From Bacteroidaceae bacterium (GTDB taxonomy: Bacteria > Bacteroidota > Bacteroidia > Bacteroidales > Bacteroidaceae), in the NCBI GenBank assembly GCA_017521285.1, contig JAFXDG010000004.1, forward strand, positions 1 to 56,779: a stretch of DNA of 56,779 nt. Reading direction: 5' to 3'. Position numbers and translations under genes: made by a program. Numbering within the stretch: the stretch's first letter is position 1; the number at the start of each line of letters is the position of its first letter. Shown here piece after piece: positions 8,850 to 34,126 of the stretch. A model generated the notes under the pieces. That model was not told the DNA's origin. It did no database searches and saw only the letters and a list, made by a program, of their open reading frames with translations.

Positions 8850-8860
8850 GTTTTTCTCCT

Positions 8861-10540: not shown

Positions 10541-10607
10541 TTTTTATTTAGTCGGCAAAAGTTGTACAAACTTAGCGGAATACAAAATAAAATCAGATTT
10601 ATTTTCA
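10541..10607. repeat. 67-bp direct repeat, copy B
   Basis: Second copy of the repeat at 8861-8927. Five substitutions separate them, three of which fall in the region of the metA -7 box. Confidence 0.9.
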
Positions 10608-11185
10608 GAAGACATGCTTGCGACAACGGTCAGAATCCCTTTTCAAGGACTCACAGGACATTGTCTGCAGAATGCAAATTCGCAATTGGTCGCATACTTA
10701 TAAAGAGAAAATTCAAAGATTAGGAAGTTTTTTTAAGTCACGCTGTTATTTGTTGTTAACAGGATGACAGGGTATTTGGTGTATTCAACTTTCGCAAAAT
10801 ACAATCTGCTTATTACATTAAACAAAATTTATTCAGATTTGCTTATTACATTAAGCAAATTATTGCAATCTGCTGTATGCGCTTTCGCTCTTTTATCTGT
10901 GCCATATTTCTGAAATATATTTTCGACCCGCTTCGCGGGTTGTATGAAGAGCGGGCTCCATTTATGCCCGCTCAAATAAATTAAATAATTAAAGGTGAAA
11001 CGGCTACGATGGAGTCTGGACGTCAAGGTTTGGATTATGGAAGTGCAACGATGGACTATGGAAGTGTACAAAGCCATGGCTATTAGTCATAGCTAATAGC
11101 CATGGCTTTGTCGCTTTCTTTTACATTCATCAGTAATAAATCCTGTATTCCTTTTTCGTTTCTATTTCATCAGAGGGCAACACCT
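10608..11185. other. Non-coding region with repeats and hairpins
   Basis: No gene is supported here. GCTTATTACATTAA occurs twice 33 bases apart (10808 and 10841). Hairpins lie at 10926-10940 (ACCCGC/GCGGGT) and 10950-10972 (AGCGGGC/GCCCGCT). TGGAYTATGGAAGTG occurs twice near 11031 and 11053. A perfect 17-bp hairpin follows at 11070-11109. Confidence 0.6.
11070..11109. repeat. Perfect 17-bp stem hairpin
   Basis: AAAGCCATGGCTATTAG (11070-11086) and its exact reverse complement (11093-11109) are separated by six bases. There is no clear T run on the plus side, so it is not a standard terminator. Confidence 0.85.
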
Positions 11186-11492
11186 CGTGATGGGTACTTT
11201 TTTCGTATATATATGCAATGTGCAAAGGTCGGAAGAGTGGAAACGGGAAGGGCATGTGCACACGTGCCGCTGACCGTGTGCACACGGTCGGCGGAGTTTC
11301 TTCAGACACTCTGCTATAAATTGTGCTTACGGCCAATAGAGGGTGTGCACACGGACAGGAGAGGATGTAACTAAGAACAGGTGAAATGCATAATTATACA
11401 ATCCGACTGTATAAATATGCAAAGCTGACCGCGTGAGAATCGCGTATATGTGCGCAACTTTTCTTTCGGACGGAAATATGCGAAAATCAGGA
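11186..11492 (+). repeat. Unrecognised ~300-bp element, copy A
   Basis: Aligns along its length, at roughly 85 percent identity by eye, with the reverse complement of 29161-29470. It holds three palindromes with core TGTGCACA (near 11254-11263, the perfect 18-bp GACCGTGTGCACACGGTC at 11272-11289, and 11343-11352). It also holds a dyad TGCATAATTATACA / TGTATAAATATGCA at about 11388-11420. No conserved reading frame is seen in either copy, so it appears non-coding. I do not recognise it. Confidence 0.85.
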
Positions 11493-11880
11493 ACCGCTAT
11501 TAAGTGACTGATATTCAACCATGAGACAGATCAACATTAACCCATAAATAAAGGCCCATTCATCCCAAGACTGTATAGAGAAGAGGAAGGCATATTTTCT
11601 ATTTCTTTACAAGAGGTGCTCTGAAATATTAACAGGAAAACATCTATTGAAAACAAAATTCAAGGACTAAACCTTCATTACCAATGAATATTTTCAAGAA
11701 AATCATTCATCATCAATGAAGAATACGGCAATGAATCAGGCAACCAAAGCACCATTTTCTTGGAAAAGTGGCAAAAATAAAGCTTTTTTCCTTGGAAAAG
11801 TGGAAGAAATACGATATTTTTGTATTGGAAAAGTGGAAAAAGTATGCAAAAAAGGAAGATAAGCAGCTATATATAATAAG
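11493..11880. other. AT-rich non-coding upstream region of the beta-helix gene
   Basis: Nothing gene-like is visible from 11493 to 11750. The last 130 bases carry the triple TTGGAAAAGTGG array annotated separately. Confidence 0.55.
11760..11843 (+). promoter_or_regulatory. Three TTGGAAAAGTGG sites at three-turn spacing
   Basis: TTGGAAAAGTGG begins at 11760, 11792 and 11825, that is at 32 and 33 base steps, each followed by an A-rich stretch. The array ends about 40 bases before the start codon at 11881. The spacing of about three DNA turns suggests a regulator binding one face of the helix. Confidence 0.6.
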
Positions 11881-14409
11881 ATGAAAAGACGTTATACCCT
11901 CATGCTGCTGCTTGCCACATGGGCATGGTTGGCAACGGCACAGACAACCTTCCGATACGGAGAGAAGGAGTTGAAGACCCATTCGCACACATGGCTGGTG
12001 AAGCCGCGGGCGACACAGGCCGAAGTGGAAAGCGGCACGGTGTTCCGTTCGGTGAAAGAGGCTATGCTGGCGGTGGACAGCATCCAGCTGACGGTGTTTG
12101 ACGAGGTGTTTACCGAGGCGAAACCGCTCAATATCTACATCACACCATGGGTCTATTGGATGGACAACCCCGACGACCCGACCGTGCGACATCCGCAAAA
12201 GGGCGAAGGCATACCCTACGGACTGAAGGTGGAGATGAGCCACACACGACTCATCGGCTTGGGCGACAAACCCGAACACACCATTCTGGCCTGCAACCGC
12301 GGACAGACACAGGGGGCGGTAGGCAACTTTACCATGCTGCACCTGACGGGAGAGAATATCGAGTTCGAGAACCTGACAATGGGAAACTATTGCAACGTCG
12401 ATCTGGTGTATGAGCCGGACACTACGCTGAACCGCAAGCGACGGGCCGATGCCATCGTACAGGGTCAGTTGGCCATCTGCCACGGCGACCGTGTGGCGGC
12501 ACGCAATTGCCGCTTCATCAGCCGGTTGAACACCTGTCCGCTGGTGGGAGCACGACGCACCTATTTCGAAAACTGCTACTTCGAATGTACCGACGATGCC
12601 CTGTGTGGCACGGGTGTACACCTAAACTGCAGCTTCACGCTGTTCAGTGGAAAGCCTTTCTACAACACACAGGGGACAGGCGCGGTCTTCCTGAACTGCG
12701 ACCTGCACTCCCTGACCGAGGGCACACAATACCTGACCAAAGTGGGAAGTCCCGTGACGATGGTGGATTGCCGATGGACAAGCCAGGACACCGAATTGAA
12801 AGTGAACTGGACACCCTCGCCCACGGACGACCTGCGGTGTTACCAATACAACCAGACATTGAACGGTGCTCCGCTGACGATTGACGGACAACGGCCACAC
12901 ATAGGCATTGCATTGGAGGGGAAGCCCTTGCTGGAAGCATTCCGCCTGACATTCCCCAAGAGCCTGTTCACCAAGGGGGCTACGGGCGACACCATCGTCT
13001 ATAACCTGCGCAACCTGTTGGGAGGGAAGGACAATTGGAATCCGGGCCATCAGCCTGATTTCATGGAGAACTGTACCCAGCGCCCCGTAGGCATGACCCT
13101 GAACCGACGGAAAGCCAACATCGAAACGGGCAAAGAGGAACTGACCCTGAAGGCATCGCGCATGACATTTGGTGAGCGCCCGGACTTCGCCCAACCATTG
13201 AAAGGACTGGATTGGCGCGTAGTGGGAGAAAATCCGGCCTGCATCAAGATAGCCCCCCAATCTGACGGGAGTCTGCAAGTGACGCCTGACAATCAGGGAG
13301 AAGAGCCACAGAAAGTGACCCTCATCGCTACCGACCCGATGGGATTGGAAGCGGCTTGTGTAGTGACCGTTTACCCGAGCGAACTGCCTCCACCCGAGTT
13401 CACCCGCCAACCGACTATGACACGCGAAGGGGATACCTTGAAGATTGACTACGAACTGGACCTTCAGGGACGAGCCGACCACTCCATCATCAGTTGGCAC
13501 CGGTGCACCAATCTCGATGGTAAAGGCGACATACAGGTGGCCACCTCGCACTACCCCGACAGGCCCATGCGTACCTATGTACTGACTGCAGCCGACAACG
13601 GATACTACATACGCGCCGTCATTGCGCCCAAGAATCCGAGAAGCCCCGTAGGAGACATCCAGATGGTGGGTTTCGGTGAACCTGTACAGACCAACCAACA
13701 GACCGTCAGCCGAATACATACCCACTTTGAGAACTTCCCCACTACCCGACAAACGGCCATTCTCCCCGGTTTCTGGACGGTAGATGCCTATAAACCTGCC
13801 GACACCCAGGAGTACGAATGGCAACCTGCTCCCTTCGGCGAGACCTGGACCTTCGGCGAAGGCGTGGATGGTGCTGCCGGTTTCCACGGACTGTTGCAGA
13901 GCACACGCGGTGCCCGCCTGCTCTACACACCCCTACCCCGCGAGTATGGCAATATGAGGCTGACCCTCGACGTGGTTCCCTGCAAACCTGCCGGACAGGG
14001 ATTCGGCAGTGCCACGGGACAATATATGGATGTCTATATCAAAATGGACACCCGCACCCTGACAGGCTATGCCCTACGCATTGTCCGCACCACCAAGTAC
14101 GACCGCGCAGTGGAGTTCATGCTGATGAAATATACCGACGGAAAGGCCGTACCCATCACTCCCGCCGTATCCTCGAACTGCTACCGCAAGGGATGTGTCA
14201 TCCGCCTGCAGGCCGAGGGGGACACCCTGACTGCTCAGGTAAAGAATGTGCTGCCCCTTCCAAATCCGAACAATCCCGACATTGTGCGCGAAGTGAACCT
14301 GTCGGCCACCATCGAGCCTAACACGTTCGGCGGCATCGGAGTGCAACACACCGGTTCCACAGGTGCCAGTGCCACGATGCTGAGAGGGTTGAATGTACGA
14401 TGGGAATAG
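11881..14409 (+). CDS. Secreted pectin-lyase-fold (beta-helix) protein
   Basis: 842 residues with a signal peptide (about 1-20, ending ATAQ). Residues about 45-330 form a right-handed beta-helix with asparagine-rich turns (FENLTMGNYCNVD, AARNCRFISRL, FENCYFECTDDALCGTG, GAVFLNCDLHS), the pattern of pectinesterase and pectate-lyase folds. The canonical pectinesterase QDT and LGRPW motifs are not clear. An Ig-like region follows (about 410-560). A C-terminal beta-sandwich of about 200 residues (GFWTVDAYKPADTQ onward) may bind carbohydrate. It stands alone, preceded by the three-site array and convergent with tamL. A role in plant or host glycan breakdown is likely but the reaction is not fixed. 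Confidence 0.72.
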   Translation: MKRRYTLMLLLATWAWLATAQTTFRYGEKELKTHSHTWLVKPRATQAEVESGTVFRSVKEAMLAVDSIQLTVFDEVFTEAKPLNIYITPWVYWMDNPDDPTVRHPQKGEGIPYGLKVEMSHTRLIGLGDKPEHTILACNRGQTQGAVGNFTMLHLTGENIEFENLTMGNYCNVDLVYEPDTTLNRKRRADAIVQGQLAICHGDRVAARNCRFISRLNTCPLVGARRTYFENCYFECTDDALCGTGVHLNCSFTLFSGKPFYNTQGTGAVFLNCDLHSLTEGTQYLTKVGSPVTMVDCRWTSQDTELKVNWTPSPTDDLRCYQYNQTLNGAPLTIDGQRPHIGIALEGKPLLEAFRLTFPKSLFTKGATGDTIVYNLRNLLGGKDNWNPGHQPDFMENCTQRPVGMTLNRRKANIETGKEELTLKASRMTFGERPDFAQPLKGLDWRVVGENPACIKIAPQSDGSLQVTPDNQGEEPQKVTLIATDPMGLEAACVVTVYPSELPPPEFTRQPTMTREGDTLKIDYELDLQGRADHSIISWHRCTNLDGKGDIQVATSHYPDRPMRTYVLTAADNGYYIRAVIAPKNPRSPVGDIQMVGFGEPVQTNQQTVSRIHTHFENFPTTRQTAILPGFWTVDAYKPADTQEYEWQPAPFGETWTFGEGVDGAAGFHGLLQSTRGARLLYTPLPREYGNMRLTLDVVPCKPAGQGFGSATGQYMDVYIKMDTRTLTGYALRIVRTTKYDRAVEFMLMKYTDGKAVPITPAVSSNCYRKGCVIRLQAEGDTLTAQVKNVLPLPNPNNPDIVREVNLSATIEPNTFGGIGVQHTGSTGASATMLRGLNVRWE

Positions 14410-14444
14410 AATAATCCACAAAAAAATCAGTGCAGCATGGCCCT

Positions 14445-14494
14445 TCTTCATTCTTCATTCTTCGTTCTTCACTCTTCCCTCTTCGTTCTTCCCT
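14445..14494. repeat. Degenerate 7-bp tandem repeat between convergent genes
   Basis: About seven units of TTCTTCA or close variants fill the gap between the beta-helix gene and tamL. Confidence 0.75.
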
Positions 14495-16864
14495 TTAGAA
14501 CGGATACCCTACGGCGAGGTGAAGACCTAATCCATCCTTGAAACGGGGAATGTTGTAATAGCCACTCTTGCCTGTATCGTAAGGCACATGGAGGGCTATG
14601 CCGAGGTCGAGACGAAGAACAAGAAACTCAAGGTCGTAACGCAATCCCAAGCCGGTGCCGAGGGCAATGTCGTTCCACACATCCTTCAGAGTAAGTTCTC
14701 CACCCGGACGGTCGGACTGGGGACGAAGCAGCCATACATTTCCGGCATCGAGGAAAGTGGCTCCGTAAAGATTGCCCACAATGGGAAAACGAAGCTCGAC
14801 ATTGGCTTCCAACTTGACGTCACCCGTCTCATCCAGATAAGAATAAAGCCCTTCGTCGGGACGGTAACTGCCCGGCCCGATGGTACGTGCCGTAAAAGCG
14901 CGGATGCTGTTGGCACCACCGATGTAGAACTGCTCGCTATAGGGGGCGTATTGGGAATTGCCATAGGGGACAATCACTCCGGCCATCAGGCGGGTGGCAA
15001 CATGGGTGCGTCCCTGCACCTTGAAGAGGTTGCGCAATTCGGTTGTCACCTTCAGGAATTGGGCAAAGGGATTTCCCAAGAGGGATTTGTCATGTTTGTC
15101 AAACGGTTCGCCGCAAAGAGCATAGATGCCCGAAGTGACGTTTCCAGCCGAGGTCACCGTGGTGCTCCACCATGTGTGGTGACGCCGCGAAGTGATGCTG
15201 GCATCATCGAACGTGTAGGTATAACTCATGGCGGGGATGAACTGGTCGCGGAAGCTGACAGCCAAGGCACGGTTCTGCTCCATGATGGAGTCGAACTTGG
15301 CCGTATGGTCCTGCAGCATATTGAAGGTCAAGCGGAATGGGGTGAACGTATGCTTCGATGTGCGTGTCGGTTGGAAGGTATAGACAGCGCTACCACCAAA
15401 CGAGAGCAGACGGAAGAATCCGGCGCGATTCAATTGGTTGGCATAGAGTTTGAACTCTGTCTGAGCCGGAAAGCGGAAACGACGGGTGTCCAGCCCCGGA
15501 AACATCAGGCGCGGATAAGTCAGAGCGGTGGAAAGTCCCAATTCCCACGAATTGATTTCGGCACTCTTTCCTGTAGCCGTCCCACCCGTCTGCCATTCGT
15601 AGGAAGCATCCAATTTCACTGAAAAAGTCTCTCCCCCACGGAACACATTCTTCTTGGCAATGCCGAATGAAAGGCCGGGCCCCACCTGATCGTTGCTCTT
15701 GCTGGTGGCATTCACTTCCAGCTCCACATCCAAAGGCTTGTCGAAGGTGGCGCTGAGCACCACATCCAGTGTGTCACATGTGGCCGAAGTGTCGCGGGGG
15801 ACAAACTGCATATCCACGGAACTGAACACACCCATGCGAGCCATATTCTCTTGGCTTTGCCGCTGTTTTTCCTGCGAATAGAGATCACCGTGGCGCAAGC
15901 GGAAGTTGTGGAACAGTACCCCCGGACGCAATGGAGGTTTCTTCCCCGTAAAGTTTATCCTCAGATGACGGATTTGCAACGTATCTTTCAAGGTATAATC
16001 ATTGTTCTTGCGCAAATTCACCGTCGTCTTCCCTATATACCATTGCTTGTTTACCGCAGGAGGTAGCCCTTCCTGAGGCTGAATCTGCAGCCATACCCGA
16101 CCGGGCTGTTGGATGGTGTCGGCACGAAACGTTATATAGTTGCTCCGATAATAGTAATAACCGTTATTACGGAAAAGGGTGGAAAGACGGTTACGCTCAG
16201 CCTCCAGCTGCACCACACTGAAGGGGTCGCCCACCTTCAGCAGTCTATCCTTCGTAGTGAAACGTATCAGTGTGTCGGCCACATAAGGAAAACGACGGTA
16301 TCGGATGGAGTCGAGTACAAACAGATGGCCTGCATCCACACGATAGGAGACTTTTTCTTTCCGGGGATTCTTTTGAGGAATGACGCGACTCGTCACCTTT
16401 CCACGAAAAAAACCAAAATCGTGCAACAGATTGGTGGCCACCTTGCTGCGCACCTCGGGATTGACGGCTGACATATAGACCGGCTCGCTGGCAAAGGTGT
16501 TGAAAATCCACCGGCCGATACCCTTCTGATGATTGACAAAAGCATTATATACCCACAAGCCGAAAGGAAAAGGGAACTTGTAGGTAGAACTTCCGAAAAT
16601 GGCATTGTTCGGAGGATATGCCAAGGCTGCCTCCACCTCGTCAAGGGCTGCTTCAGTCTTTTGCAAGGCACTGTCATTCACATATTCGATGCGCTTAATG
16701 CCGGTGTAAAGCGTCTCCTCTTGTGGTAAATTACGGGTAGTACTACAGGCAACAAACAATAGGGATACAATGATTGTCAAAATGCTACCATGCAATTTTT
16801 CAGACGCACCTTTTACATATCCGAGCACACTACCAACGTTGGTTTTCTTCTTATTATATCTCAT
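14495..16864 (-). CDS. tamL: TamL, lipid-modified TamA/BamA-family outer-membrane protein
   Basis: 789 residues. A long positively charged N-region leads to a lipobox (LLFVAC, Cys at about residue 40), as expected for TamL, the lipoprotein form of TamA in Bacteroidetes. POTRA-like domains span roughly 45-380 and a 16-strand Omp85 barrel follows, with IRAFTARTIGPGSYRP as the conserved loop region and LGLHLAVGYPF at the C-terminus. With TamB it forms the translocation and assembly module that moves proteins or lipids to the outer membrane. Its ATG overlaps the tamB stop (ATGA), so the two are translationally coupled. Confidence 0.9.
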   Translation of the reverse strand: MRYNKKKTNVGSVLGYVKGASEKLHGSILTIIVSLLFVACSTTRNLPQEETLYTGIKRIEYVNDSALQKTEAALDEVEAALAYPPNNAIFGSSTYKFPFPFGLWVYNAFVNHQKGIGRWIFNTFASEPVYMSAVNPEVRSKVATNLLHDFGFFRGKVTSRVIPQKNPRKEKVSYRVDAGHLFVLDSIRYRRFPYVADTLIRFTTKDRLLKVGDPFSVVQLEAERNRLSTLFRNNGYYYYRSNYITFRADTIQQPGRVWLQIQPQEGLPPAVNKQWYIGKTTVNLRKNNDYTLKDTLQIRHLRINFTGKKPPLRPGVLFHNFRLRHGDLYSQEKQRQSQENMARMGVFSSVDMQFVPRDTSATCDTLDVVLSATFDKPLDVELEVNATSKSNDQVGPGLSFGIAKKNVFRGGETFSVKLDASYEWQTGGTATGKSAEINSWELGLSTALTYPRLMFPGLDTRRFRFPAQTEFKLYANQLNRAGFFRLLSFGGSAVYTFQPTRTSKHTFTPFRLTFNMLQDHTAKFDSIMEQNRALAVSFRDQFIPAMSYTYTFDDASITSRRHHTWWSTTVTSAGNVTSGIYALCGEPFDKHDKSLLGNPFAQFLKVTTELRNLFKVQGRTHVATRLMAGVIVPYGNSQYAPYSEQFYIGGANSIRAFTARTIGPGSYRPDEGLYSYLDETGDVKLEANVELRFPIVGNLYGATFLDAGNVWLLRPQSDRPGGELTLKDVWNDIALGTGLGLRYDLEFLVLRLDLGIALHVPYDTGKSGYYNIPRFKDGLGLHLAVGYPF

Positions 16865-19800
16865 TCCTTTCTTCTAAATATAAACAATTCTCCCAACTTG
16901 TTCACCTTGCGGCGAAGTACAAGACCGACACCCGTTTCGATAATTTCACCTTCAAGGATGCTCTCATAGTTGCGGGTATGGAACAATCGTACATAACGTG
17001 TACCGCTGTCATCCAACCGCCACTCCAACGAAATGTCGTCGATGAACGAACTGCCCTCGCCTTCAGCCACAGCTTCATTACCCGTAGAGATACGCCCCCC
17101 AACAATAACGCTCAAACGATTGTTCCAAAATCGTTTGGCAAAACGGAAGGAGTAGTCGGTTCCGCCTGGAGTGGTACCGTCAGCGGCATAATTGTCCTCC
17201 ACACCAATGCTGACATCCACTGTCTTCAGAGCACTGCCGGCAATGTTGGTAATTTCGCTTTGCAAGAATGAGTTCAGGGCATTTCCCGTGTTGAATCCAC
17301 CACCATTCCGTCCCTGTCCACCGGCATATATACCTGTCACCAGCATAGTCACAGCCAGCTTGCCCCGCTCCTCGTCTGACATGGCAGCCAACTGGTTCTG
17401 CACGGTCACGTCTTCTGGAGCATCGAGCAAGAAGGCTATACCCATATTGTCCAGCGTATTCGTAATGGACACCCCCACATCGAAATTCACATAGCGCGAA
17501 CTGTTGTCCTCGCTCACCGAGGTACGCATCCGTTCCGTAGCGGTGATATTCAATAATGGATTGGCCGGATTTCCGGTAAACTCCACATAACTGCCATTGG
17601 CAATATTAAAAGTTTTCAGCGGGATAACCGGAAGCGAATATTTCATCTCCCCACTGTTGAGTGTATAACGGCCCGTCAACAGGAAATCGCCTTGTGGAGT
17701 GTATCGCATCGACAAGTTGCCTCCACCCTGTACCTCTACGTAATTATCGTTTCCCAAATCGACCTGCACTTCTGCCCCTTGGTCTATCTGTACGTTCAAC
17801 AATACATCAATTCCTCCGAGAGACACCTCTTCGTTGACCTTGGGTACATCAGTGGAATCGTTGAAATTCACGAAAGTGACCATACTGCCCAACCGGTCTT
17901 CCACCGTCAGGGCAGATTCTTTCAGCACATAGGTCACATCCGTATTCCCCAACACATTCATCGAACCCCGCACCACAGGGTTCGTCAGTTCCCCTTTAAT
18001 GGTAGAGTTGAGGGTGACGAAGACTTTGCCGTGCAACACCGAATGTTTGTTCTTCTTGGCATTCAGCAATTCGTACTCCACCGCCCGCATCTGCAAATCG
18101 GCCGTCATATGGGAAAAATTTTTCAGATTCACGTCTCCCGTCAAAGTGAAAGGATTCTTCCCCTTGGCATAGAGGGGAAAATCATCGAACTGTACGCGAT
18201 TGTCTCCGATAGTCACCGATGCCTGATCGGTATGCAAATCCACCGCATAGAGGGGAGAGTGGAGACGCACTGAGTCGAAGCGGACTTCCCCATCGATACG
18301 CGGAGCTGAAACAGAACCATCCACCGTCAGTTCGCCCTCTACCAAACCAGTCATAGTCACCACGTCGCGTGGCACAAAAGCATTGGCCATCTCCAAAGGC
18401 AGACGGTGCAAGCTAAGGGTTGCATCCAAGCGGTCATCGTCTTTTCCCTCTCCGCCAGCTGTGGGCGATGCATACTGTCCGCCCGCCGTAACAATCTCCT
18501 CTCCGTTGCGCATCAGTTGCAGGTCCACTAAATGCTGCCCCACCATCGTGGGCAAGTAAACGGCCTCCAATCCGAGCGTGCCTAAAGGGTATCCGTCGTA
18601 GGCCAGGCTGTCCACTTGCACAGTTCCACTAAAGGTATTATTCTCTGTATCCTTCACATAGTGCAATTCGGCATTCAATCGGCCTGCAATATCGGGGGCA
18701 TAAGGCAACACTGTCAAAATTTCCGCCAAATTCAAGTGAGTCAGATCGGCCGTAATATCCTGTAGTGCCTCTTCATTGGGCGACGAGTAAAGGCGCAATC
18801 CCGTACCGGCCCGATCGAGCAAAGTCACATTAGCCGTAACACGCCCCGAATCGCTGAGAGCGATATAGTTACTATCGTTCAACGTAAACGTGCGGAAGCC
18901 GATGACCGGATGGTCGGGGAAAAACGACAAGCGCATCCCCTCTTCCTCCCAAACGACACGCGCCCCCAATTCCAATCCTAAATCCTTCTTCCCATTGCGG
19001 AAATGTATCAAGGTGTTCCCCTCCCGATTGCTGAGAAGGGTGGTCAGATTGGCAGCAAACACCGGTTTCCGCTTGCCGGGCGCATTGCTCACCCCAAGGG
19101 TGGCAACGAGCGTCGTGTCATCCTTCATGGTCACATCCACCTTCACGGTATCAAACTCCAGACTATCTGTGCGGAAACTCAGAATGTCACCATCGACAGA
19201 CACCCCATTGAGGGGCGACGTGCGGATATCCACCATAGCCGACTCCATACTGAATCCGTTTGTGTGGTACAGATAATTGGCCACGGGATTCTCATGTCCC
19301 GCCGTCAGCGTCATGTTCATATCGGGCAGTTGATGTTTCATTTGACCTATATCAGCCCCCCGTTCCAACCACTCTTGTGCTTGAAGACATTGCAAAAAAA
19401 GGTCTGTCTGATTTATCAATGAACCGAGGCTGGCCGCTCCGTTCATCGTCACATCGAGGTCACCAGTCTCCACATGGGCATACAGGGAATCAGACCTCAT
19501 ATCCACCTGCATGGCAACAGCCAGCGGCACTTCCGTCAGCTGCAGGGCCTGTATATTGCTTTCCATCACCTCCACTACAGCCTCAGCTTTCAGGGAGTCA
19601 CGATGTAGCAATCCCTCTGCACGAGCCTGCATTTCAAGAGCTGGATTACGACTTTCCAAAGTCAGTTGTGCCCGATGCTCTTCCAATGAAGCCAATAGAG
19701 CGACATCCGAAACCAACTGGACACCATATTGCAAACTGTCAACCCTCACGTCGGCCGTCAGATGCGTAGCCTTGGCATAGAGGTCTGTGCCTCGTCCCAT

Positions 19801-21333: not shown

Positions 21334-21378
21334 TCCTACACACGTCAGAGAGAGGGGGAGACATCCTCTTTTCGGAAG

Positions 21379-21386
21379 CAAAGATA
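21379..21386 (-). promoter_or_regulatory. -7 box upstream of tamB
   Basis: Reads TATCTTTG on the minus strand, matching TAnnTTTG; a good -33 box is not evident. A start a few bases downstream would exclude the TTG at 21381 and supports the ATG at 21333. Confidence 0.5.
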
Positions 21387-21520
21387 GTGCAATCCCTTCA
21401 GAAAAAGGCAGAATCCCGAAGTATTTAATACTTCTTTATACGAAAAACAGAAGAATCCGCTAAAAGTTTTCCGAAATCTGACAGAATCCCGTCCGTTCCG
21501 TACTCAAGTTTTGCCCAATA

Positions 21521-21574
21521 GAAAAAATGCAACTTGCAAAACAGGTAAATGAGCACTGCATTTCAATCAAAAAC
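21521..21574. repeat. Short dispersed repeat related to 38752-38805
   Basis: AAAAAATGCAACTTGCAAAA, then AGGTAAATG and CTGCATTTCAA, matches the sequence at 38752-38805 with few changes. It lies between tamB and btuF and codes for nothing visible. Confidence 0.7.
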
Positions 21575-21622
21575 AAAGTTAGGCACGAATTACACGGATA
21601 ACCAGCCCCCTACAGAGCGGGG

Positions 21623-22771
21623 TCATTCCACCAACGGAGTATAGTAGTGCAAAGAGACGAGGGAATCGGCACAAAGTTCGGGATGAAAGATACCGGCAAA
21701 CTCAGCCAACAGACGCTCGGGATGGAAAGGCACTTCGTCGTAAAAATGACTACGAGCCGTATTGCAACCGTACATACGACGGTTTTTATAAGCATCAAAA
21801 TGGGTATAAGGTTCATACTCAACAGCCAACGAGCGATACGTCCAGTCTTGCGGAGCATGGTAGCGGATGAGCCAGATGTCGGCACCGCGCGCCTTTTCAT
21901 AAATGGTCTCGAATGAATAGGGAGTTGAACCGCTATTAGTATTGTCGGCAAACAGATAACGGGCACCGGCATCAGCATACATACGGCCGATGGTGCTACC
22001 CCCACCCGACACATACCAAGCCGAAGGGCCTGCAGGCAGGTCAGCAAACACAGTAGGGCGCTCTGCACAAGCCTGTGCCCTGTGCTTCCATGCCAAATAA
22101 TCACTTTCAACAATGGCAAACAGCGAATCGGCTTCAGCAGCCCGACCATACAGGCGGCCATAGAAGCGCATCCACTCGGCACGCCCTAAGGCTGAAGTCT
22201 CCATATAGTCGGCACACTCAATGATAGGCACGCCCAATCTGTCCACACGTCCATATCCGCCACTATTCTCAAAGGGTGAGAGCAACAGGGCATCGGGCAT
22301 CAGGTCAATCATGCGCTCAATGTCGGGGCTTTGTCCGTTTCCCAAATCCACCATCTCCCCTTGTTGAAGGCGTTGTTGAACCTCCGGCTGATGGATATAT
22401 TTCGCATCACACACACCGGCCACGGCATCCAATGCCCCCAGCTCTGTCACCAATCCGCCATGCACCGCCGTATAGATGACCGAACGCTGCAGAGGCACCC
22501 TCACCACTGTTCCCTCGGGCAGGGTATCAGTGTCAACCTCCTTTCCTCGCGGCACAAGCACATAGGAGTGCAACGTCTTCAGTGTGTCCCACGGATTGCG
22601 CAAGGTGACAAGGGTGTAACCGGGACACTCCACCACCTGCAAGTGGGAAGCATGACGGATGTCCAGCGTATCGCCCGCAGGCAGGGGTGCACGATTCCCC
22701 TCCCCGTCACACGACGGGAAGAGGAAGGCAAATGTGCAAACAGCTATGATAGTAAAAACAAAGCTTCGCAT
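21623..22771 (-). CDS. btuF: BtuF-like periplasmic cobalamin-binding lipoprotein
   Basis: 382 residues with a lipobox FLFPSC (Cys20). The class III solute-binding fold is seen in RSVIYTAVHGGLVTELGALDAVAGVCD (split here by the lipid-anchored N-part), DIERMIDLMPDALLLSPFE and VPIIECADYMETSALGRAEW. These match the BtuF/FepB type that carries B12 or siderophores to an ABC importer. Placement third in a riboswitch-controlled operon with btuB and btuG argues for cobalamin. No btuCD genes follow in the window; the next gene on this strand is tamB, after 240 bases. Confidence 0.85.
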   Translation of the reverse strand: MRSFVFTIIAVCTFAFLFPSCDGEGNRAPLPAGDTLDIRHASHLQVVECPGYTLVTLRNPWDTLKTLHSYVLVPRGKEVDTDTLPEGTVVRVPLQRSVIYTAVHGGLVTELGALDAVAGVCDAKYIHQPEVQQRLQQGEMVDLGNGQSPDIERMIDLMPDALLLSPFENSGGYGRVDRLGVPIIECADYMETSALGRAEWMRFYGRLYGRAAEADSLFAIVESDYLAWKHRAQACAERPTVFADLPAGPSAWYVSGGGSTIGRMYADAGARYLFADNTNSGSTPYSFETIYEKARGADIWLIRYHAPQDWTYRSLAVEYEPYTHFDAYKNRRMYGCNTARSHFYDEVPFHPERLLAEFAGIFHPELCADSLVSLHYYTPLVE

Positions 22772-22774
22772 GAC

Positions 22775-23866
22775 TTATTCAAAGAACACCATCGCATTAG
22801 GTCCCTGCCCGCCACTCTCGAACTTTCCGACAAAAGTGCCGTCGGCCTTGAAGCGGTAGATGTCACCCTCACCGGCAGCGTAATGGGTGATGCCCACATA
22901 GATGTCGCCATTCTCGGGATTCACCTCCAGCATATAGACATTGCCAGTGGTCAGTTCCGCAGGAGCATCTTTCAGGAAAGAGGTCTCGCTCTTCTGCCTT
23001 GTACGGGTATCGTAGGTGTAGAAGGTGGTGGTGTAGTTCACCCAGTCGGCCGTACTGCAATAGACCACATAGAGTTTGTTGCCATACTCGGCCATGTGGG
23101 TACCCTGTCCGATGTTGCTGACGGTCTTTGTCTGACAGTCGTAGAGCTGCACAGGATAGGTGTAGGGGTCGGGATAAGCAGCGCCATAGCCTTGAATGAA
23201 GATGCAGTCGTTCACCTCGATGATGCGTTGGGGATTGGTCATGATAGTGACATGTTCGGCAGACTCAAAGGTGCGCAGGTCGATGATGGAGAGGCGGTTG
23301 TCGTAGCCCCAGCCACTATTGACCACGTAGAGCTTGCCATCTTCCTCCACCAACTGTTCGGGATTGTTGCCCACGGCCACCATCTTTTCGAAGGCCAATG
23401 TCTTGGCATCCAAGCGGGCCACATTTCCACTGTAAAGGGTCACATACACCTTTCCGTCTTCAGCCACTGCATAGCGGGGCTGTCCCTGCTCTTCGGTGAA
23501 AGCATAGCGGGCCAACTCCACACCGGCACCACTCAGACGGGTGATGTAGCTGGAGCCGTTCACAATGACGTAGATGTCGCCATTGTACCCAATCATATCC
23601 TGCGCTGTGTCGCCCAACTTCAGGCCACCATTCTGCTTGGCATAGATGTCAGTAATCACCTCGCCCGTAGCAGGATTGTAAAACGATACATTGGCATTGT
23701 TCATACCATAGATTCCTTCGTTCAGAACAAACGCACGCTGCTTGGGCAATACCACTTCAGCATTCTCGTTCCACTTGTCGTTGTCATCATCGTCCTCACA
23801 GGCGGTGAACACTGCACCCGTTGCCATCAGGCAGAGGGCACTCAAGAAAAGACTTCTAAGTTTCAT
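22775..23866 (-). CDS. btuG: BtuG-like surface cobalamin-capture lipoprotein
   Basis: 363 residues with a lipobox (FTACEDDDDND, Cys at about 23); the acidic residues after the cysteine are a surface-export signal in Bacteroides. The rest is a seven-bladed beta-propeller of the DUF5074/YncE type, with repeated strands such as GDIYVIVNGSSYITRL, GKVYVTLYSGNVARLD and KLYVVNSGWGYDNRLSIID. BtuG is known to sit on BtuB and bind B12 with extreme affinity. The gene lies between btuB and btuF, three bases before btuF. Confidence 0.9.
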   Translation of the reverse strand: MKLRSLFLSALCLMATGAVFTACEDDDDNDKWNENAEVVLPKQRAFVLNEGIYGMNNANVSFYNPATGEVITDIYAKQNGGLKLGDTAQDMIGYNGDIYVIVNGSSYITRLSGAGVELARYAFTEEQGQPRYAVAEDGKVYVTLYSGNVARLDAKTLAFEKMVAVGNNPEQLVEEDGKLYVVNSGWGYDNRLSIIDLRTFESAEHVTIMTNPQRIIEVNDCIFIQGYGAAYPDPYTYPVQLYDCQTKTVSNIGQGTHMAEYGNKLYVVYCSTADWVNYTTTFYTYDTRTRQKSETSFLKDAPAELTTGNVYMLEVNPENGDIYVGITHYAAGEGDIYRFKADGTFVGKFESGGQGPNAMVFFE

Positions 23867-23920
23867 TCTTTTTTTGTTTTAGGTTTTACATTCTATGATT
23901 TTATTAACCGATTAATCTTT

Positions 23921-25918
23921 TCAGAAAGAGAGAATCATTCCCACCCGCCACGAACGGCCGGGCATGGGATAATACTTGATGACCTCGTACTGCCGGTCGG
24001 TAAGGTTCACCACATCGGCCTGCAGGCGCAACGTAGCGGACTTTCCCAATTGGAAGCTGCGCGAAGCGGTAAGGCCATGCTCCACATAGCCCTCTATCTC
24101 GTTCGACGGGATATTCTGATCCATGAAGTAGCGCTTACCAACGGCCATCAGGTTGTACCCCACGTGCAGCCACGGAGTCTTCAGCACAGCCGAAGCATTG
24201 CCACTATGGCGCGGTGTATAGGGCAGTTGGTCCTTGTAGTTCTTGGCCGACGGATTGGTCAGGTCGAGTGCCTGCTGGAAGGTGTAGGCACCCGTCACAT
24301 CCACCTCACAGCCCCCAATGAGGGGAAACGAAGCGCCCAACGTAGCATCCACACCGTGAATCTCCACCTCGCCATAGTTGGCCATACGCCACACATACAC
24401 CGAGGGAAAGGCCACAATCTTGTCTTCCACCTTGTTATAATAGGCATCCACCGTCAAGGAGAGGCTATTGAGCCAATCCACAGGGCGGGCACTCCACGTC
24501 AGCCCCACGTTGTACTCCGTGGCATCTTCAGGACGCAGCGCAGTGTTGCCCGAGCGGCGGTAATAAAGGTCGTTGAAGGTGGGCACACGGAACGTATTCT
24601 TGTAGAGGGCACGCAAGTAGAGTGCCTCGCTGCTCCACGGCCTCCACGACAAGGAGAGGGAGGGGGAAAGATGACGGCGGTCGTCGGGCGTTGCACCCGA
24701 ACGGACTTCATCGGTCGTATAAGTGCCAGTCAGATTGGCCAGCAGATGCCATCCGCCCCATCGGAAGTCGGCATTCAAGGCCGTCAGCGAGGTCAGCCGC
24801 ACGGGGTTGGGACTGTCATCAATGTTGTTGCGCAAGGTGTTGACAAAGCCATCCTGTGCCAACGAGAGGGCCACGTATGGGGAGGGTTTCCAACAGACAG
24901 TGGCCGAAGCGTAATACTCATCCTGGCGGTGCACATCCACCTGACGGCCACCCTCGTACTTCACATTGGTATCCTCGTAACGGTTCCATGCATGGTTGTA
25001 CTTGGCCAAAGCACGCATCTTCCACTGGGGAGAAAATTGTTTTTCGTAAGCTATCTGGGTAAAGAAATTCTCATCCCACAGGCGTTCGCGTGCCGTAGGG
25101 TTGTAGAGGATGACACTGCCCGGCAATCCGCGCTCCGACCGATAGAAATAGCCCTTTCCCGTCAAGCGGCTCTCATCCCTGAAGGTATGATAGAGATTTC
25201 CCTCCACATGCCAGCTGCTGATGTCGGAGTTACGTCGGCGTTCGGTCGTCTCTGTCCGGCCATTGTCGAGAGTGAAGGGATAGATGCCGTCGGCACGCAT
25301 GTAGTCGCCCTCCACCATCAGAGCGGTGCGCGAAGCCACCTTACGGGCATAGCGCAATGACGGGGTGATGTATCCGAACGAACCGCCACTCACCCGGGTA
25401 CGCCACATGTCTTTTTCTCCTTCGGCAAAGGTTGGTTGCTGGGTGCGTATGCTCAAGATGCCTGCCGAGGCATAGGCACGGGCCGACTGGAGAAGGTCGC
25501 TCCCCTGCCCTACGGCCAACGAGACTTCCTCCACATTGTCCAAGGCAAAGCGCCCCACGTCAATCTGTCCGGCTTGCGCGTTGCTCACCGCCACCCCATC
25601 GTAACTCACGGCCGTATGGGCTACTCCAAGGCTTCGCACCGACACGGTCTTCAGTCCCCCGATGCCGCCATAGTCGCGCACAGTGACTCCGGCAAAGCGC
25701 TTCACGGCATCGGCCACACTCTGTGCTCCCAAAGCCTCCAGCTGCTCGCGCCCCATGGATTGCACCGGTTGGGCCGAAGCCACCTGCAAGGGAGTCCGAC
25801 GCGCCTTCACCGTCACTTCATCAATCGTGTGCAGGGTGTCAACCACCGACTGGGCACATACAGGAATGTTCAGCAAGCCACCCAACACCAACAGGTTGAG
25901 TACATAGCGTACACTCAT
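23921..25918 (-). CDS. btuB: BtuB-type TonB-dependent cobalamin receptor
   Basis: 665 residues. A signal peptide ends at VCAQ, then a TonB box (IDEVTVKA) and a plug domain (about 45-150, with SVADAVKRFAGVTVRDYGG). A 22-strand barrel ends in RSWRVGMILSF. It transports B12 across the outer membrane using TonB energy. It is the first gene after a complete cobalamin riboswitch, which fixes the substrate better than sequence alone. btuG starts 54 bases downstream. Confidence 0.93.
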   Translation of the reverse strand: MSVRYVLNLLVLGGLLNIPVCAQSVVDTLHTIDEVTVKARRTPLQVASAQPVQSMGREQLEALGAQSVADAVKRFAGVTVRDYGGIGGLKTVSVRSLGVAHTAVSYDGVAVSNAQAGQIDVGRFALDNVEEVSLAVGQGSDLLQSARAYASAGILSIRTQQPTFAEGEKDMWRTRVSGGSFGYITPSLRYARKVASRTALMVEGDYMRADGIYPFTLDNGRTETTERRRNSDISSWHVEGNLYHTFRDESRLTGKGYFYRSERGLPGSVILYNPTARERLWDENFFTQIAYEKQFSPQWKMRALAKYNHAWNRYEDTNVKYEGGRQVDVHRQDEYYASATVCWKPSPYVALSLAQDGFVNTLRNNIDDSPNPVRLTSLTALNADFRWGGWHLLANLTGTYTTDEVRSGATPDDRRHLSPSLSLSWRPWSSEALYLRALYKNTFRVPTFNDLYYRRSGNTALRPEDATEYNVGLTWSARPVDWLNSLSLTVDAYYNKVEDKIVAFPSVYVWRMANYGEVEIHGVDATLGASFPLIGGCEVDVTGAYTFQQALDLTNPSAKNYKDQLPYTPRHSGNASAVLKTPWLHVGYNLMAVGKRYFMDQNIPSNEIEGYVEHGLTASRSFQLGKSATLRLQADVVNLTDRQYEVIKYYPMPGRSWRVGMILSF

Positions 25919-25997
25919 CTACTACAAAAAAGATGTTTGTTTTACACAATTTCAATTCCCAGCACCTTTCCTCGAAGCACGGGGATTTTTGACTCTG

Positions 25998-26190
25998 TTT
26001 TGCAGGTCTTCTGACTTACTCCGTCGTTTGCTTGGCCTTCCCATACCTTATTATATAGAAGGAACAGTGGCTTTCGTGCTTAAGCAAACGTCCTGAAAGA
26101 ATTGGAGCTTACAGCAGCGGGACTGTTCGGGACTTTCACCCGATTCCCTTTTCATCCTACCCAGCCGCAGGGGCTTGTCGGAACAAAACG
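25998..26190 (-). promoter_or_regulatory. Cobalamin (AdoCbl) riboswitch
   Basis: On the minus strand the conserved parts appear in order: GGGTGAAAGTCCCGAAC, CCCGCTGCTGTAAGC, GCCACTG (26065-26071), GGGAAGGC and the final AGTCAGAAGACCTGC (26002-26016). Ligand binding should reduce expression of btuB-btuG-btuF. Confidence 0.95.
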
Positions 26191-26193
26191 GTG

Positions 26194-26224
26194 CAAAGGT
26201 AACGATTAAAATGATACGCGCAAA
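26194..26224 (-). promoter_or_regulatory. Promoter of the btu operon
   Basis: TTTG (26221-26224), 19 bases, then TACCTTTG (26194-26201) on the minus strand: a full match to the Bacteroidetes consensus, directly before the riboswitch. Confidence 0.8.
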
Positions 26225-26360
26225 GAAAATGACAGAAAAATGATAAAAAGAATAATAAGACAAAAGAACAAAAGAGGAAACCTTGTGTACTTATCCCCTT
26301 ATGTTCTTATATCTAAAAAACTATCGTTCTTTTATCTAAGAGCCTCACCTCTCTGCTCTT

Positions 26361-26384
26361 CCCCCTCGGAGGGGATTGAGGGGG
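26361..26384 (-). repeat. GC-rich hairpin after the permease stop codon
   Basis: CCCCCTC (26361-26367) pairs with GAGGGGG (26378-26384), beginning directly after the stop. It looks like a single copy of the REP-like palindrome and may act as a terminator or mRNA stabiliser. Confidence 0.55.
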
Positions 26385-26385
26385 G

Positions 26386-28716
26386 CTATCCCTTACAAAT
26401 CTCATCCGCCGGATGGGCCTTGGCCGTGCGCCACACGCGCCAACCGATGCAAAGGGCGACCAGCAGGGCCACACTAACGAAGATGGCGGGACAGAGCCAC
26501 AAGGGAATCTCCACCTGATGAATGTATCCCTCCAACCACGGTTTGACGCAGACGTAGGCCACGGGGAAAGCCACCACAGCCGCAGCCACGAGCACCACTA
26601 ACTGCTCGGTAAAGAAAAGCCGCAGGATGTCGCCCACTTTGGCACCGAACACCTTGCGTACAGCAATCTCCTTGCGCCGCTGTTCGCAACTGATGGTTAT
26701 CAACGAATAGACCCCGAACAGGGCTATGAGTATGCAGACGGCCGTCATTACGTAGAACAGCCCCAGCAGTGTATCCTCAGAGTGGAGCAGGCGGTTGAAT
26801 GATTCGTCGATGTTATTCAGATACATATAGGGAATGCGTTCACTGAAACGGCTACGGATGGAATCGCGTAAAGCCGGCCATGAATCAGGACGATAACAGA
26901 AACTGAGATAATTTTTGTTTGTCTCCCTTTCTTCTTTAGGAATGTAAACTATCGGTTCCTGTGGCACGATGAACGATTTGGAACTGACGTTACGCACCAC
27001 ACCGACAATGCGGTAATGGTCTCCAAAGAACAGTGGCAATACTGTGTCTACCGGATGATCCAAGTTATAGTACTTTACAGCCGACTCGTTCAGTATGGCC
27101 ACATCCTTCTCATAATCTTCCATCCAACGGCCTTCCAACAGTTCCACCCCCCAGAAGTCAATTTCTTCGCGGGTCATACTTTTCCCGTTGGTAAAAACCA
27201 TATTCCCATTTTTGTCATTGGAAACAGTGCGATAGTTTGCCTGTCCTATTTCATCGCATCCCATTATCACCTGCTCCACATCGGGGTGGTTACGCAGATA
27301 GTGCGCCATCTCTTCCATCAACTCGGGCTCATTGTAGTTACTGATTGTAGTCCGGTTCTCATGGATGAATCCCGTTATGGTGTTGGTCCGCAAGTAGTGG
27401 AGTTGCAGGATGATGACCGAAGTGAAGAAAACCAGTCCCATACAGATGACTAATTGCAGCCATTGGCTCATAGGGCGGAACAGGTTGCGGCTTACAGTGA
27501 CCATGTCCTTGTGTAACGTTTCGTTCAGCGACCGCCGTTGCATCCACCAGGTGACACATACCAAAAGGGGGATGGTGCATAAAGCTACTGCCAGCATATA
27601 TACTCCCATTTCGACAAAAAAGTAGGCGTTTTCTTCTTTTATTCTTGTAACTTCCCTGAACTCGGGCAATGCAGCGTGAAAGAACAGCATTCCCAAGAGG
27701 CAGGCAGCACAGAGCAGTAACAGGAATTCCGTGATAAGTAACATCAGCAATTGCCTGCGCGACGAACCGCACACCAACCGCAGAGCCAGCTCGCGTGACC
27801 GCATACGGATACGGATGACGTATAGAGAAAGATAGTTGAACACGGCGCATACCACCACTATCAGCCCCAAGAGGGCAAAGGTGCGGATGTGCTCGATTTT
27901 GACAAGATTCAGGTAGGATTGTGGAAATTCCGTGCGAACAGAATCCAGACGGACAAGCCGTGTATCTGAGGTGATGAAGGAGGGATGTCTGTTGATGATG
28001 GCCGACACCGTATCGGGGGTGGCCGTAGGGTGCAGGCGCATGATGGTGTGCCCCATAAACATAAATTCACGGCCATGCCACTCGGCTATCTGACCGCTTT
28101 TGAATGGTATGATGCAGTCAAAGGGAAATTCGGTATGCGCCCTCCAATCTTTCACCACAGCCGCAACCGTATAAGTGCCATTCTCCCATATCTTGCCCGT
28201 AAACTTCTCAGGGTCGGCTGGTTTGTTTTCCAACGTCAGTTCGCGTCCGAGGCAATCAATCGTACCGAACAGTTTCATGGCCAGCTTGTCCGTCACCACT
28301 GCCTTTGTCCCATCGGGGTGCATCTGCGGATAACTTCCCGCCACCAATTCGGGTTGCAACGTAGGAAGAAAGAGCGTATCCACCACACAAAGCCATACTC
28401 CTACATCGTTGGCTCTTATGGTATGATGGCGGAACGAGGTAGCCTTATCTACATGAGGGATTTCCCTCATGGCCCAAGTAGCCGTTCCGTAATCGGTAAA
28501 AAATGATACCGTCGCCCACTTGTCTTGCGACGTCACCTGCAGATACAGATTCTCCGCCTCAGGATGAAACGCGTCATACGTCGTCTCGTACCTCCACCAC
28601 AGGGAGGAGAGGGCAAAGCAGGTGAATCCTACGGCCAGGCCTACGAGGCTCAGCAGGGTCTGCAACTTGTACTTCGTCAGTTGGCTCAGGGCCATGGTCA
28701 AATTGTGTAGCAGCAT
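26386..28716 (-). CDS. FtsX/MacB-type ABC transporter permease
   Basis: 776 residues with two FtsX units. The first helix is at about 18-36 (LLSLVGLAVGFTCFALSSLW), followed by a large periplasmic MacB-PCD-like domain. Core helices start near residue 275 (LLGLIVVVCAVFNYLSL) with RSRELALRLVCGSSRRQL, and the second set near the C-terminus has EIAVRKVFGAKVGDILRLFF. This is the Bacteroides type of mechanotransmission permease often linked to peptide or lipoprotein export or antimicrobial resistance. No partner ATPase is adjacent, so it must share one or be expressed alone. Confidence 0.85.
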   Translation of the reverse strand: MLLHNLTMALSQLTKYKLQTLLSLVGLAVGFTCFALSSLWWRYETTYDAFHPEAENLYLQVTSQDKWATVSFFTDYGTATWAMREIPHVDKATSFRHHTIRANDVGVWLCVVDTLFLPTLQPELVAGSYPQMHPDGTKAVVTDKLAMKLFGTIDCLGRELTLENKPADPEKFTGKIWENGTYTVAAVVKDWRAHTEFPFDCIIPFKSGQIAEWHGREFMFMGHTIMRLHPTATPDTVSAIINRHPSFITSDTRLVRLDSVRTEFPQSYLNLVKIEHIRTFALLGLIVVVCAVFNYLSLYVIRIRMRSRELALRLVCGSSRRQLLMLLITEFLLLLCAACLLGMLFFHAALPEFREVTRIKEENAYFFVEMGVYMLAVALCTIPLLVCVTWWMQRRSLNETLHKDMVTVSRNLFRPMSQWLQLVICMGLVFFTSVIILQLHYLRTNTITGFIHENRTTISNYNEPELMEEMAHYLRNHPDVEQVIMGCDEIGQANYRTVSNDKNGNMVFTNGKSMTREEIDFWGVELLEGRWMEDYEKDVAILNESAVKYYNLDHPVDTVLPLFFGDHYRIVGVVRNVSSKSFIVPQEPIVYIPKEERETNKNYLSFCYRPDSWPALRDSIRSRFSERIPYMYLNNIDESFNRLLHSEDTLLGLFYVMTAVCILIALFGVYSLITISCEQRRKEIAVRKVFGAKVGDILRLFFTEQLVVLVAAAVVAFPVAYVCVKPWLEGYIHQVEIPLWLCPAIFVSVALLVALCIGWRVWRTAKAHPADEICKG

Positions 28717-28755
28717 GTCTGTTCTTTTATTTTATGGTAAATAATTTTGCGGTGG

Positions 28756-28786
28756 CAAATGTATGCAAATCAGTCCATCCGACAAA
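28756..28786 (-). promoter_or_regulatory. Promoter of the permease gene
   Basis: TTTG (28783-28786), 19 bases, TACATTTG (28756-28763) on the minus strand, a full consensus match about 40 bases before the start codon. Confidence 0.75.
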
Positions 28787-29160
28787 GGAATGTATGCGGA
28801 AACCGCCTGATAATAACCTTTATAAATAGTAGGTAACAATATTTAACGAGTTGACAAGGCATGAACCTTGGGCGATGGCTGATAGCAATGGCTGATGGCT
28901 TCGACCTTTGACCTTTGACCTTAGACATTTGACCTTAGTCCCATCAACATCTCAACGAATCACTCTTCATTACAGCTTTGCTCCCTCCTCCTTTGGGGGA
29001 GTTGGAGGGGACCATCCTCTTCTGTCAAGAATTTTACTTTCCCCTTGTCAAGAAATCGAAAAACGTCATCTGTATTCCTCCCCCATCCCAAGGATGGAGT
29101 GACCTTAATCCCAAGATGACGTGCATCTATTTACCAACTGATGCTCAACAACTTATCAAC
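28787..29160. other. Non-coding region with heptamer repeats
   Basis: No gene is supported. About five units of GACCTTT or close variants lie at 28902-28938. A REP-like palindrome (CTCCCTCCTCCTTTGGGGGAG) lies at about 28981. ACGTCATCT/AGATGACGT form a 9-bp stem between about 29064 and 29122. Confidence 0.55.
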
Positions 29161-29470
29161 CCTCTGATTTTTTCGCGTATTTTCATCCGAAAGAAAAGTT
29201 GGGCACATATACGCGATTCTCATGCGGTCAGTTTTGCATATTTATACAGTCGGATTGTATAATTATGCATTCCACCTGTTCTTAGTTACATCCCCTCCTG
29301 TCCGTGTGCACACCCTCTATTGACCGTAAGCACAACCTATAGTAGAGTGTCTGAAGAAACTCAGCCGACCGTGTGCACACGGCTAGCGACATGTGTGCAC
29401 ACGCACTTCCGACTTTCAGTCTTCCGACCTTTTTACATTGCATATATATACAAAAAACGTCCCGTTACGA
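29161..29470 (-). repeat. Unrecognised ~300-bp element, copy B (inverted)
   Basis: Reverse-complement partner of 11186-11492. The three TGTGCACA cores (near 29304, 29371 and 29393) and the TATACAGTCGGATTGTATAA dyad near 29245 are kept, while the bases between them differ more. The two copies enclose about 17.7 kb. Confidence 0.85.
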
Positions 29471-29670
29471 ACCTTTTCCTTTTGATGGAATAGAGAGAAA
29501 ACAGAAAAGTGGGAATTATTACCAGTGGATGTAAAAGAATTGTAAAAAAGAGCTGTCAACACCAACACCTCAAAGGGGGAGAGAGCAGAGAGGAGGAAGC
29601 GTTGAGATGTCAAAAGGTTGAATACTGCTTACTCAAGCCCGTTGATGCGTTGAAGAATTGGGGGAGCCGT

Positions 29671-34117: not shown

Positions 34118-34126
34118 ATATAAGGA

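Follow-up and report, generated by a model that had tools for sequence, protein, structure and literature searches.

A composite dispersed intergenic repeat with alternative site cassettes in ruminant-gut Bacteroidaceae

Introduction

Iteron arrays of plasmid origins hold about five to seven sites at a two-turn spacing of ~22 bp, beside AT-rich DNA. Porphyromonas gingivalis is a member of the order Bacteroidales. Its BrickBuilt element is intergenic and non-coding, consists of a leader, 23-nt repeats and a tail, occurs in 19 copies in one strain (8 of them without leader, tail or both), has a narrow host range and was read by its authors as a miniature inverted-repeat transposable element (MITE); it ends in small terminal inverted repeats similar to those of the IS5 family, and its array has one repeat type in variable number (Klein et al., 2015, PMC4596501). 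Bacterial interspersed mosaic elements (BIMEs), made of repetitive extragenic palindromes (REPs), are mosaic intergenic arrays of palindromic units for which binding of DNA gyrase, IHF and DNA polymerase I is reported (PMC2817692). Here we describe a dispersed element found in a 56,779-nt stretch of DNA (the window) from Bacteroidaceae bacterium GCA_017521285.1 (contig JAFXDG010000004.1, positions 1-56,779, forward strand), whose genome comprises 3.38 Mb and is G000 in our genome list. We are highly confident that it is a composite repeat, in which a fixed leader-tail frame surrounds a cassette of mostly 4-6 units placed two helical turns apart.

BrickBuilt is the nearest published kind, the likeness being a class resemblance by layout and not a sequence comparison. 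Both have a leader and a tail around a tandem array; the units here lie at intervals of 21-24 bp, some degenerate and some inverted. The present element differs in that its frame takes five types of array, its ends showed no terminal inverted repeat and most of its unpaired leaders or tails lie at contig ends. Of 94 typed cassettes, 88 have 4-6 counted units, against a variable repeat number in BrickBuilt, and arrays of types B and D also stand free of the frame. Because the BrickBuilt layout is present and the terminal inverted repeats are not, we file the element as a variant, not a member, of that kind. The likeness to iterons is a resemblance only; the present element differs from them in its dozens of dispersed copies in one genome. 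BIME/REP arrays serve as a model of the possible function of the present arrays, the gyrase binding of BIME-2 being the nearest functional precedent (PMC2817692); unlike in REP/BIME systems, a cognate tyrosine transposase gene flanked by the repeat was not found (five PF01797 genes, incomplete genomes). The open-access literature searched held no description that we recognised of the element, its interchangeable cassettes or the genus-wide arrays.

Results

An initial annotation of the window had described an inverted pair of an unrecognised ~300-bp non-coding element. The inverted similarity of the two copies (A and B) is real: the arms at 11193-11486 and 29170-29463 are 294 nt long and 90% complementary, with 17,683 nt between them, and the next inverted repeat listed in the window measures only 37 nt. 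The copies are not a pair, however, but two of at least 40 in their own genome. The own-genome search, in which 40 of 61 candidates were scored so that the copy number is a lower bound, gave 51 matches, namely 40 copies and 11 short palindrome self-matches; the copies are 78-90% identical to copy A, and 7 of the 40 sit at the end of a contig. Nor is the element ~300 bp long. A profile of the whole element, built from 33 own-genome copies, extends over 11109-11645 and 29008-29545 (~535 bp), with conservation continuing beyond the earlier limits on both sides. Open reading frames (ORFs) within the copies change place and strand between loci, in agreement with a non-coding element, and no Rfam family reached its gathering score in a scan of the copies. 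Of the alternatives that the annotation had named, a tRNA spacer and chance similarity outside the palindromes find no support: the window has no tRNA gene, and similarity in other genomes reaches well past the palindromes.

The element consists of a leader (~120 bp), a central array and a tail (~265 bp). The leader runs from TTTACA...GTAATAA through CTATTTCATCA to the AT-rich dyad TGTATATATATACA. The tail has, in order, the dyads TGTATAATTATACA and TGTATAAATATGCA, 21 bp apart, then GAGAATCGCGTATATG and TTTTCTTTCGGACGAAAA; a variable zone separates these from a final ATTTCTTTACA...TTTACA. Three TGTGCACA cores had been noted and are present; the array in fact comprises five sites in register, two of them degenerate (TTCTTCAG and TGTGCTTA), spaced 22, 21, 24 and 22 bp in the type-A arrays of both copies. 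One site (GAGTTTCTTCAGACACTC) is inverted in place in the copy at L018. A direct word like TTTCTTTACA is common to both element ends (11/12; none of 200 shuffles reached 11). The features of the two copies are given below, with the evidence in brackets ("letters", read directly from the sequence).

11109..11645, + strand: copy A, whole element, type A cassette (profile match, 504.5 bits)
29008..29545, - strand: copy B, whole element, type A cassette (profile match, 537.2 bits)
11113..11231, + strand: copy A leader, TTTACA (11120-11125) to left AT-rich dyad (model R1, 92.2 bits; letters)
29425..29541, - strand: copy B leader (model R1, 98.9 bits)
11204..11217, + strand: copy A left AT-rich dyad CGTATATATATGCA, at the cassette border (letters; conserved across 41 type-A copies)
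11255..11262, no strand: copy A array site 1, TGTGCACA (letters)
11277..11284, no strand: copy A array site 2, TGTGCACA, the centre of GACCGTGTGCACACGGTC (letters)
11298..11305, no strand: copy A array site 3, degenerate TTCTTCAG (letters; register 21 bp; L048 has TTTGTGCACACA there)
11322..11329, no strand: copy A array site 4, degenerate TGTGCTTA (letters)
11344..11351, no strand: copy A array site 5, TGTGCACA (letters)
29394..29401, no strand: copy B array site 1, TGTGCACA (letters)
29372..29379, no strand: copy B array site 2, TGTGCACA (letters)
29351..29358, no strand: copy B array site 3, TTCTTCAG (letters)
29327..29334, no strand: copy B array site 4, TGTGCTTA (letters)
29305..29312, no strand: copy B array site 5, TGTGCACA (letters)
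11383..11643, + strand: copy A tail, with AT-rich dyads at 11387-11400 and 11408-11421 (21 bp apart), GAGAATCGCGTATATG, the variable zone and TTTACA at 11606-11611 (model R2, 175.6 bits; letters)
29015..29272, - strand: copy B tail, AT-rich dyads at 29256-29269 and 29235-29248 (model R2, 182.1 bits; letters)

Cassettes were typed by shared 7-mers against one reference per type. The 99 catalogued elements comprised 41 of type A, 28 D, 18 C, 5 B and 2 E, plus 5 untyped, three of which resemble A or D by eye. The motifs are GTGTGCACAC in A, CTCTTAAGCGTTA/TAACGCTTAAGAG in B, GTCAGCGGCTAA in C, TCCTAAACATCCG/CGGAYGTTTAGGA in D and GTTGTGCACAAC in E, the last being related to type A. Unit spacings in bp (counts in brackets) were 22 (70), 21 (32), 24 (30), 23 (5) and 44-46 (6) for type A; 23 (63) and 46 (1) for C; 22 (38), 21 (28), 66 (16), 44 (10) and 14 others, partly from overlapping motif matches, for D; 22 (8), 43 (7) and 21 (2) for B; and 22 (8) and 23 (2) for E. 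Median element lengths were 538 bp with cassette A, 553 with C, 605 with D and 639 with B. For leader-tail pairing we took 124 of 126 leader matches, omitting the two weakest, and, of 199 tail matches, the 126 that scored about 37 bits or higher. This gave 110 pairs, whose start-to-start distances cluster with cassette type: mostly 259-272 in A, 281-288 in C, 292-302 in E, 326-344 in D and 360-392 in B. The outliers were 178, 222 (contig-end cut), 297 and 284, the last in a type A element that has an insertion. Most unpaired leader or tail ends lie at contig ends.

Next, we compared elements at the same locus. L042 (type A, genome G014) and L053 (type B, G012) are 98% identical in the right flank and 91% in the tail; the leaders are 66% identical and the left flanks differ. 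Two further same-locus pairs carry unlike cassettes (L041/L056, A/B; L004/L064, A/C). In L044/L047, the left flank is 100% identical over 600 bp, the element 90-93% and the right flank 74-80%. In a tree of leader plus tail from 88 of the 99 catalogued elements (short ends and the five untyped left out), there are 14 changes of cassette type (minimum 4; mean of shuffles 42) and 17 of genome (minimum 5; mean of shuffles 45). Judging by the same-locus comparisons and the 14 changes on the tree, we concluded that cassette types are mostly inherited but exchanged repeatedly. Exchange apparently also occurs within one genome, with L023 (A) beside L111 (D).

The annotation had taken the conservation of the palindromes as a sign of selection on binding sites or RNA structure. 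The palindromic cores are indeed best kept. In the type-A alignment (41 type-A elements from loci up to L064), identity was 92.4% over 70 site columns vs 80.5% over 97 between-site columns, with a site mask selected by us from the consensus, and none of 166 circular shifts of the mask matched this gap. The RNA half of the proposal fared less well. Covariation was examined by column pairing and by RNAalifold on 33 copies, and neither supported an RNA: pairing at palindromic positions was no commoner than independent columns predict, and RNAalifold gave weak energies and weak covariation terms on both strands. A proposed tail hairpin was 79.4% paired vs 79.5% in letter shuffles; it beat slid versions (33-57% paired), as expected when a structure derives from one sequence. 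Individual copies were more stably folded than their dinucleotide shuffles, of which 12 were made per copy (mean z -3.7 to -7.7; types A-D, both strands, 5 copies per type). An RNA family or covarying RNA was rejected on the lack of a Rfam gathering-score match and of covariation. Since the dyads are conserved as sequence without covariation, the alignments point to protein-binding DNA over RNA.

To describe the distribution, 15 genomes of one ruminant-gut Bacteroidaceae genus were searched with the tail model R2 (132 candidates scored per genome) and the leader model R1 (150 per genome). At about 37 bits and above, the tail matches numbered 46 in G000, 38 in G014, 20 in G002, 12 in G005, 7 in G012, 2 in G013 and 1 in G011, so that 7 of the 15 genomes carry clear tails; leaders were present in six of these seven (the exception being G013). 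Only weak tail matches were seen in G006, and none in G001, G003, G004 and G007-G010. By arithmetic (46 tail matches x ~535 bp), the family takes up ~0.7% of its own genome. A search of 251 Bacteroidaceae genomes, 236 of them outside the genus, with 7 candidates scored in each and stricter filters, gave strong matches confined to the element's genus. Twelve genomes of other genera had weak matches (19.7-35.6 bits), mostly at model positions 50-150, and these look like a small hairpin module built around CGCGTATTT..AAATACGCG, with CTGATAATCAG often coming next; on this reading of the weak matches, the tail may be built on an older small repeat. The named records with the tail motif (19 stretches) are Bacteroidaceae metagenome-assembled genomes (MAGs) from ruminant hindgut. 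Phage and plasmid collections gave no match to the element, and we rejected a phage or plasmid origin on that ground; in the sole IMG/VR contig match (L157), the element adjoins a gene that looks like a bacterial lipoprotein gene. Enrichment between convergent genes was likewise rejected: 36 tail matches in the fetched G014 DNA, weak short ones included, were 7 convergent, 10 divergent and 19 tandem, against 120, 137 and 369 background gaps of at least 50 bp by our ORF-based gene calls.

Presence and absence at orthologous sites were examined next. For three of the 40 own loci, the fetched G014 DNA contains both flanks in colinear order, and the element was absent there in all three. Three further loci gave a one-sided match beside a G014 copy, and the remaining loci no informative match. 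Copy B is absent in G014, G005 and G011, whose btu stretch (with a cobalamin riboswitch and the btu genes, named as in the initial annotation) is aligned next to the ppk region, about 190, 37 and 60 bp away respectively. In the window, the 3.4 kb between the btu stretch and ppk (26227-29669) hold a MacB/FtsX permease gene and copy B, and this segment has no counterpart in the three genomes. The btu stretch lies inside the 17.7-kb block and ppk outside, and their order and orientation are unchanged in all three species alignable on one stretch. Inversion of the block, which the annotation had suggested, is disfavoured since this arrangement is the same in three species that lack copy B.

The annotation's remark that no transposase is nearby was checked on six neighbouring proteins. 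Among transposase families, PF01797 (RAYT-like) was the one used for the mobilisation test: the gene occurs in 5 of the 15 genomes, many of them incomplete (3 of 7 element carriers, 2 of 8 others), and the fetched flanks of the five genes contain no element. On these genomes and fetched flanks, mobilisation by RAYT/IS200 was rejected, as PF01797 does not track the element. A RAYT-like protein of ~345 aa with a PF01797 match occurs once per genome in G000, G012 and G014 (L094, L095, L096).

Arrays also occur outside the frame. In G014, of which 1.55 Mb were fetched for the array and periodicity work, seven type B and D arrays stand outside any frame; they look convergent-biased, in numbers too few for a claim. 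The pattern CTTAAGCGTTAN{6,14}CTTAAGCG matched 33 times in G012, 25 in G011, 8 in G014, 5 in G005, 2 in G002, 1 in G000 and 0 in the other nine genomes, with 0 matches of its reversed control across all 15; some matches lie inside frame elements (C35, C73 and C133 of G012; C22 and C123 of G002). Five type-B arrays outside a full frame, picked for inspection from the matches of this pattern, all had five CTTAAG at 21, 22, 22 and 22 bp or the mirror. Those at L289 and L290 are near-identical, and a tail-like fragment lies near L290. After the frame elements were masked, recurrence of 7-mers in the intergenic DNA of G014 peaked at lags 21, 22, 23 and 24 (331, 602, 590 and 142, vs 11-16 in shuffles; single-letter shuffles were used here and in the array-count, unit-dyad and palindrome-spacing tests). 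A 22-bp lag peak was also present in G008, which has no frame element (78 vs 2 shuffled), and, less strongly, in G019 from another genus (16 vs 1). Arrays with a 19-26-bp lag were found in 78 of 624 G014 intergenic regions (24 at 27-34, 33 at 11-18, 0 shuffled), in 6 of 80 regions of G008 and in 1 of 68 of G019.

Further intergenic arrays with a 22-24-bp period and unrelated unit sequences were seen in G014 (L218:11412, L205:7353, L213:9583 and L221:977). The window itself has a short tandem array of 22-bp period at 34122-34182 (ATCCCAAGGATAAGC...), like those of G014, with a weak whole-element profile match (21.8 bits) at 34130-34207. Inverted repeats of GCGCGGATT-like units lie at 34244-34330 and 42831-42918, and a similar ACGGATTACACGGATT hairpin adjoins a type-B array in G014 (L225).

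Other repeats lie upstream of copy A. Directly before its leader, 11068-11111 forms an inverted repeat with 20 of 22 base pairs (ACAAAGCCATGGCTATTAG..CTAATAGCCATGGCTTTGT), and other copies have related words (AATAGCTGTATTTGTC) in front of them. A direct repeat of 68 bp (93% identity) occupies 8860-8927 and 10540-10607; its second copy also matches places in G002, G011, G012, G013 and G014, and it is a second dispersed repeat. The stretch at about 10788-11009, just upstream of copy A, has scattered matches in several genus genomes (up to 92%) and is possibly a third.

Discussion

On balance, we consider it probable that these are composite dispersed intergenic repeats that serve as binding platforms and exchange their cassettes. 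A dimeric DNA-binding or DNA-wrapping protein would bind the array cooperatively on one helix face, as suggested by conserved dyads without compensatory change, fold stability on both strands and the two-turn register, and the bound array would form a compact nucleoprotein structure in intergenic DNA. The chance that the array binds protein seems to us about even. The copies would spread as non-autonomous repeats and recombine via their common leader and tail, which would swap the cassettes and place copies at junctions of transferred DNA; that cassettes are swapped by recombination between copies is the better bet. Several points weigh against this interpretation. No terminal inverted repeat was found at the ends of the type-A consensus (best 12-mer 9/12, with 67 of 200 shuffles at 9 or more), no target duplication was seen at empty sites, whose flanks are too diverged for a verdict, and no gene-carrying relative was seen. 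The empty sites are not polarised between gain and loss, and the stretch missing at copy B also holds a gene. The 14 cassette and 17 genome changes on the tree were counted without a branch-support check. As far as named, the elements lie on MAG contigs, where chimaeric joins at repeats could mimic some junctions. In the G014 periodicity data, lags 10, 14, 18 and 53 were also above shuffles (119, 151, 182 and 156), perfect palindromes gave only a weak 22-bp spacing signal, and the folded-unit dyad score was barely higher than shuffled (4.32 vs 3.98, of 6). Given the weak palindrome spacing and the near-null dyad scores, units outside the cassettes we read need not be dyads.

The main competitor, unlikely in our judgement though a serious one, is a plain MITE-like parasite, i.e., a non-autonomous transposon remnant with a functionless internal minisatellite, whose copies are kept only because they are recent and still copied. 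The element is dispersed, intergenic and missing from some orthologous positions (all 3 loci with two colinear flanks in G014; copy B, together with a gene, in three species), its full-length matches are confined to one genus among the 251 family genomes, and BrickBuilt was taken for a MITE by its authors (PMC4596501). Such a parasite is harder to reconcile with the missing terminal inverted repeat and gene-carrying partner, with lengths that are tightly grouped even though own copies are only 78-90% identical to copy A, and with the better conservation of sites (92.4% vs 80.5% between). If each copy were transcribed into a non-coding RNA or a regulatory region structured as RNA, this would account for single copies folding more stably than dinucleotide shuffles; both strands are alike in this, however, as expected of dyads, covariation and a Rfam family at gathering score are missing, and the centre is replaced wholesale between copies, which makes an RNA quite improbable. 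As for a reversible inversion of the 17.7-kb block driven by the two copies, inverted arms of 294 bp at 90% could at times undergo homologous recombination, but with the btu-ppk arrangement the same in G014, G005 and G011 and at least 40 copies in the genome, so that no pair is special, we find this hardly credible.

Beyond the exchange of cassettes on binding platforms, a broader and rather doubtful idea is that of a genus-wide system of intergenic arrays of about five sites in strict two-turn register, with many unrelated site sequences, in which the geometry (21-24 bp) and not the sequence is conserved and the frame is one carrier of exchangeable cassettes. It would imply paralogous, co-evolving DNA-binding proteins or a nucleoid protein that reads geometry, and thus modular chromosome-organising sites.

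Even if selfish, the element accounts for some assembly breaks, as the copies at contig ends indicate, and it may mark recombination junctions between species. One repeat family, so far without annotation, takes ~0.7% of its own genome. If the arrays are protein platforms, gut Bacteroidaceae would offer a system in which exchangeable binding cassettes on the chromosome can be put to the test.

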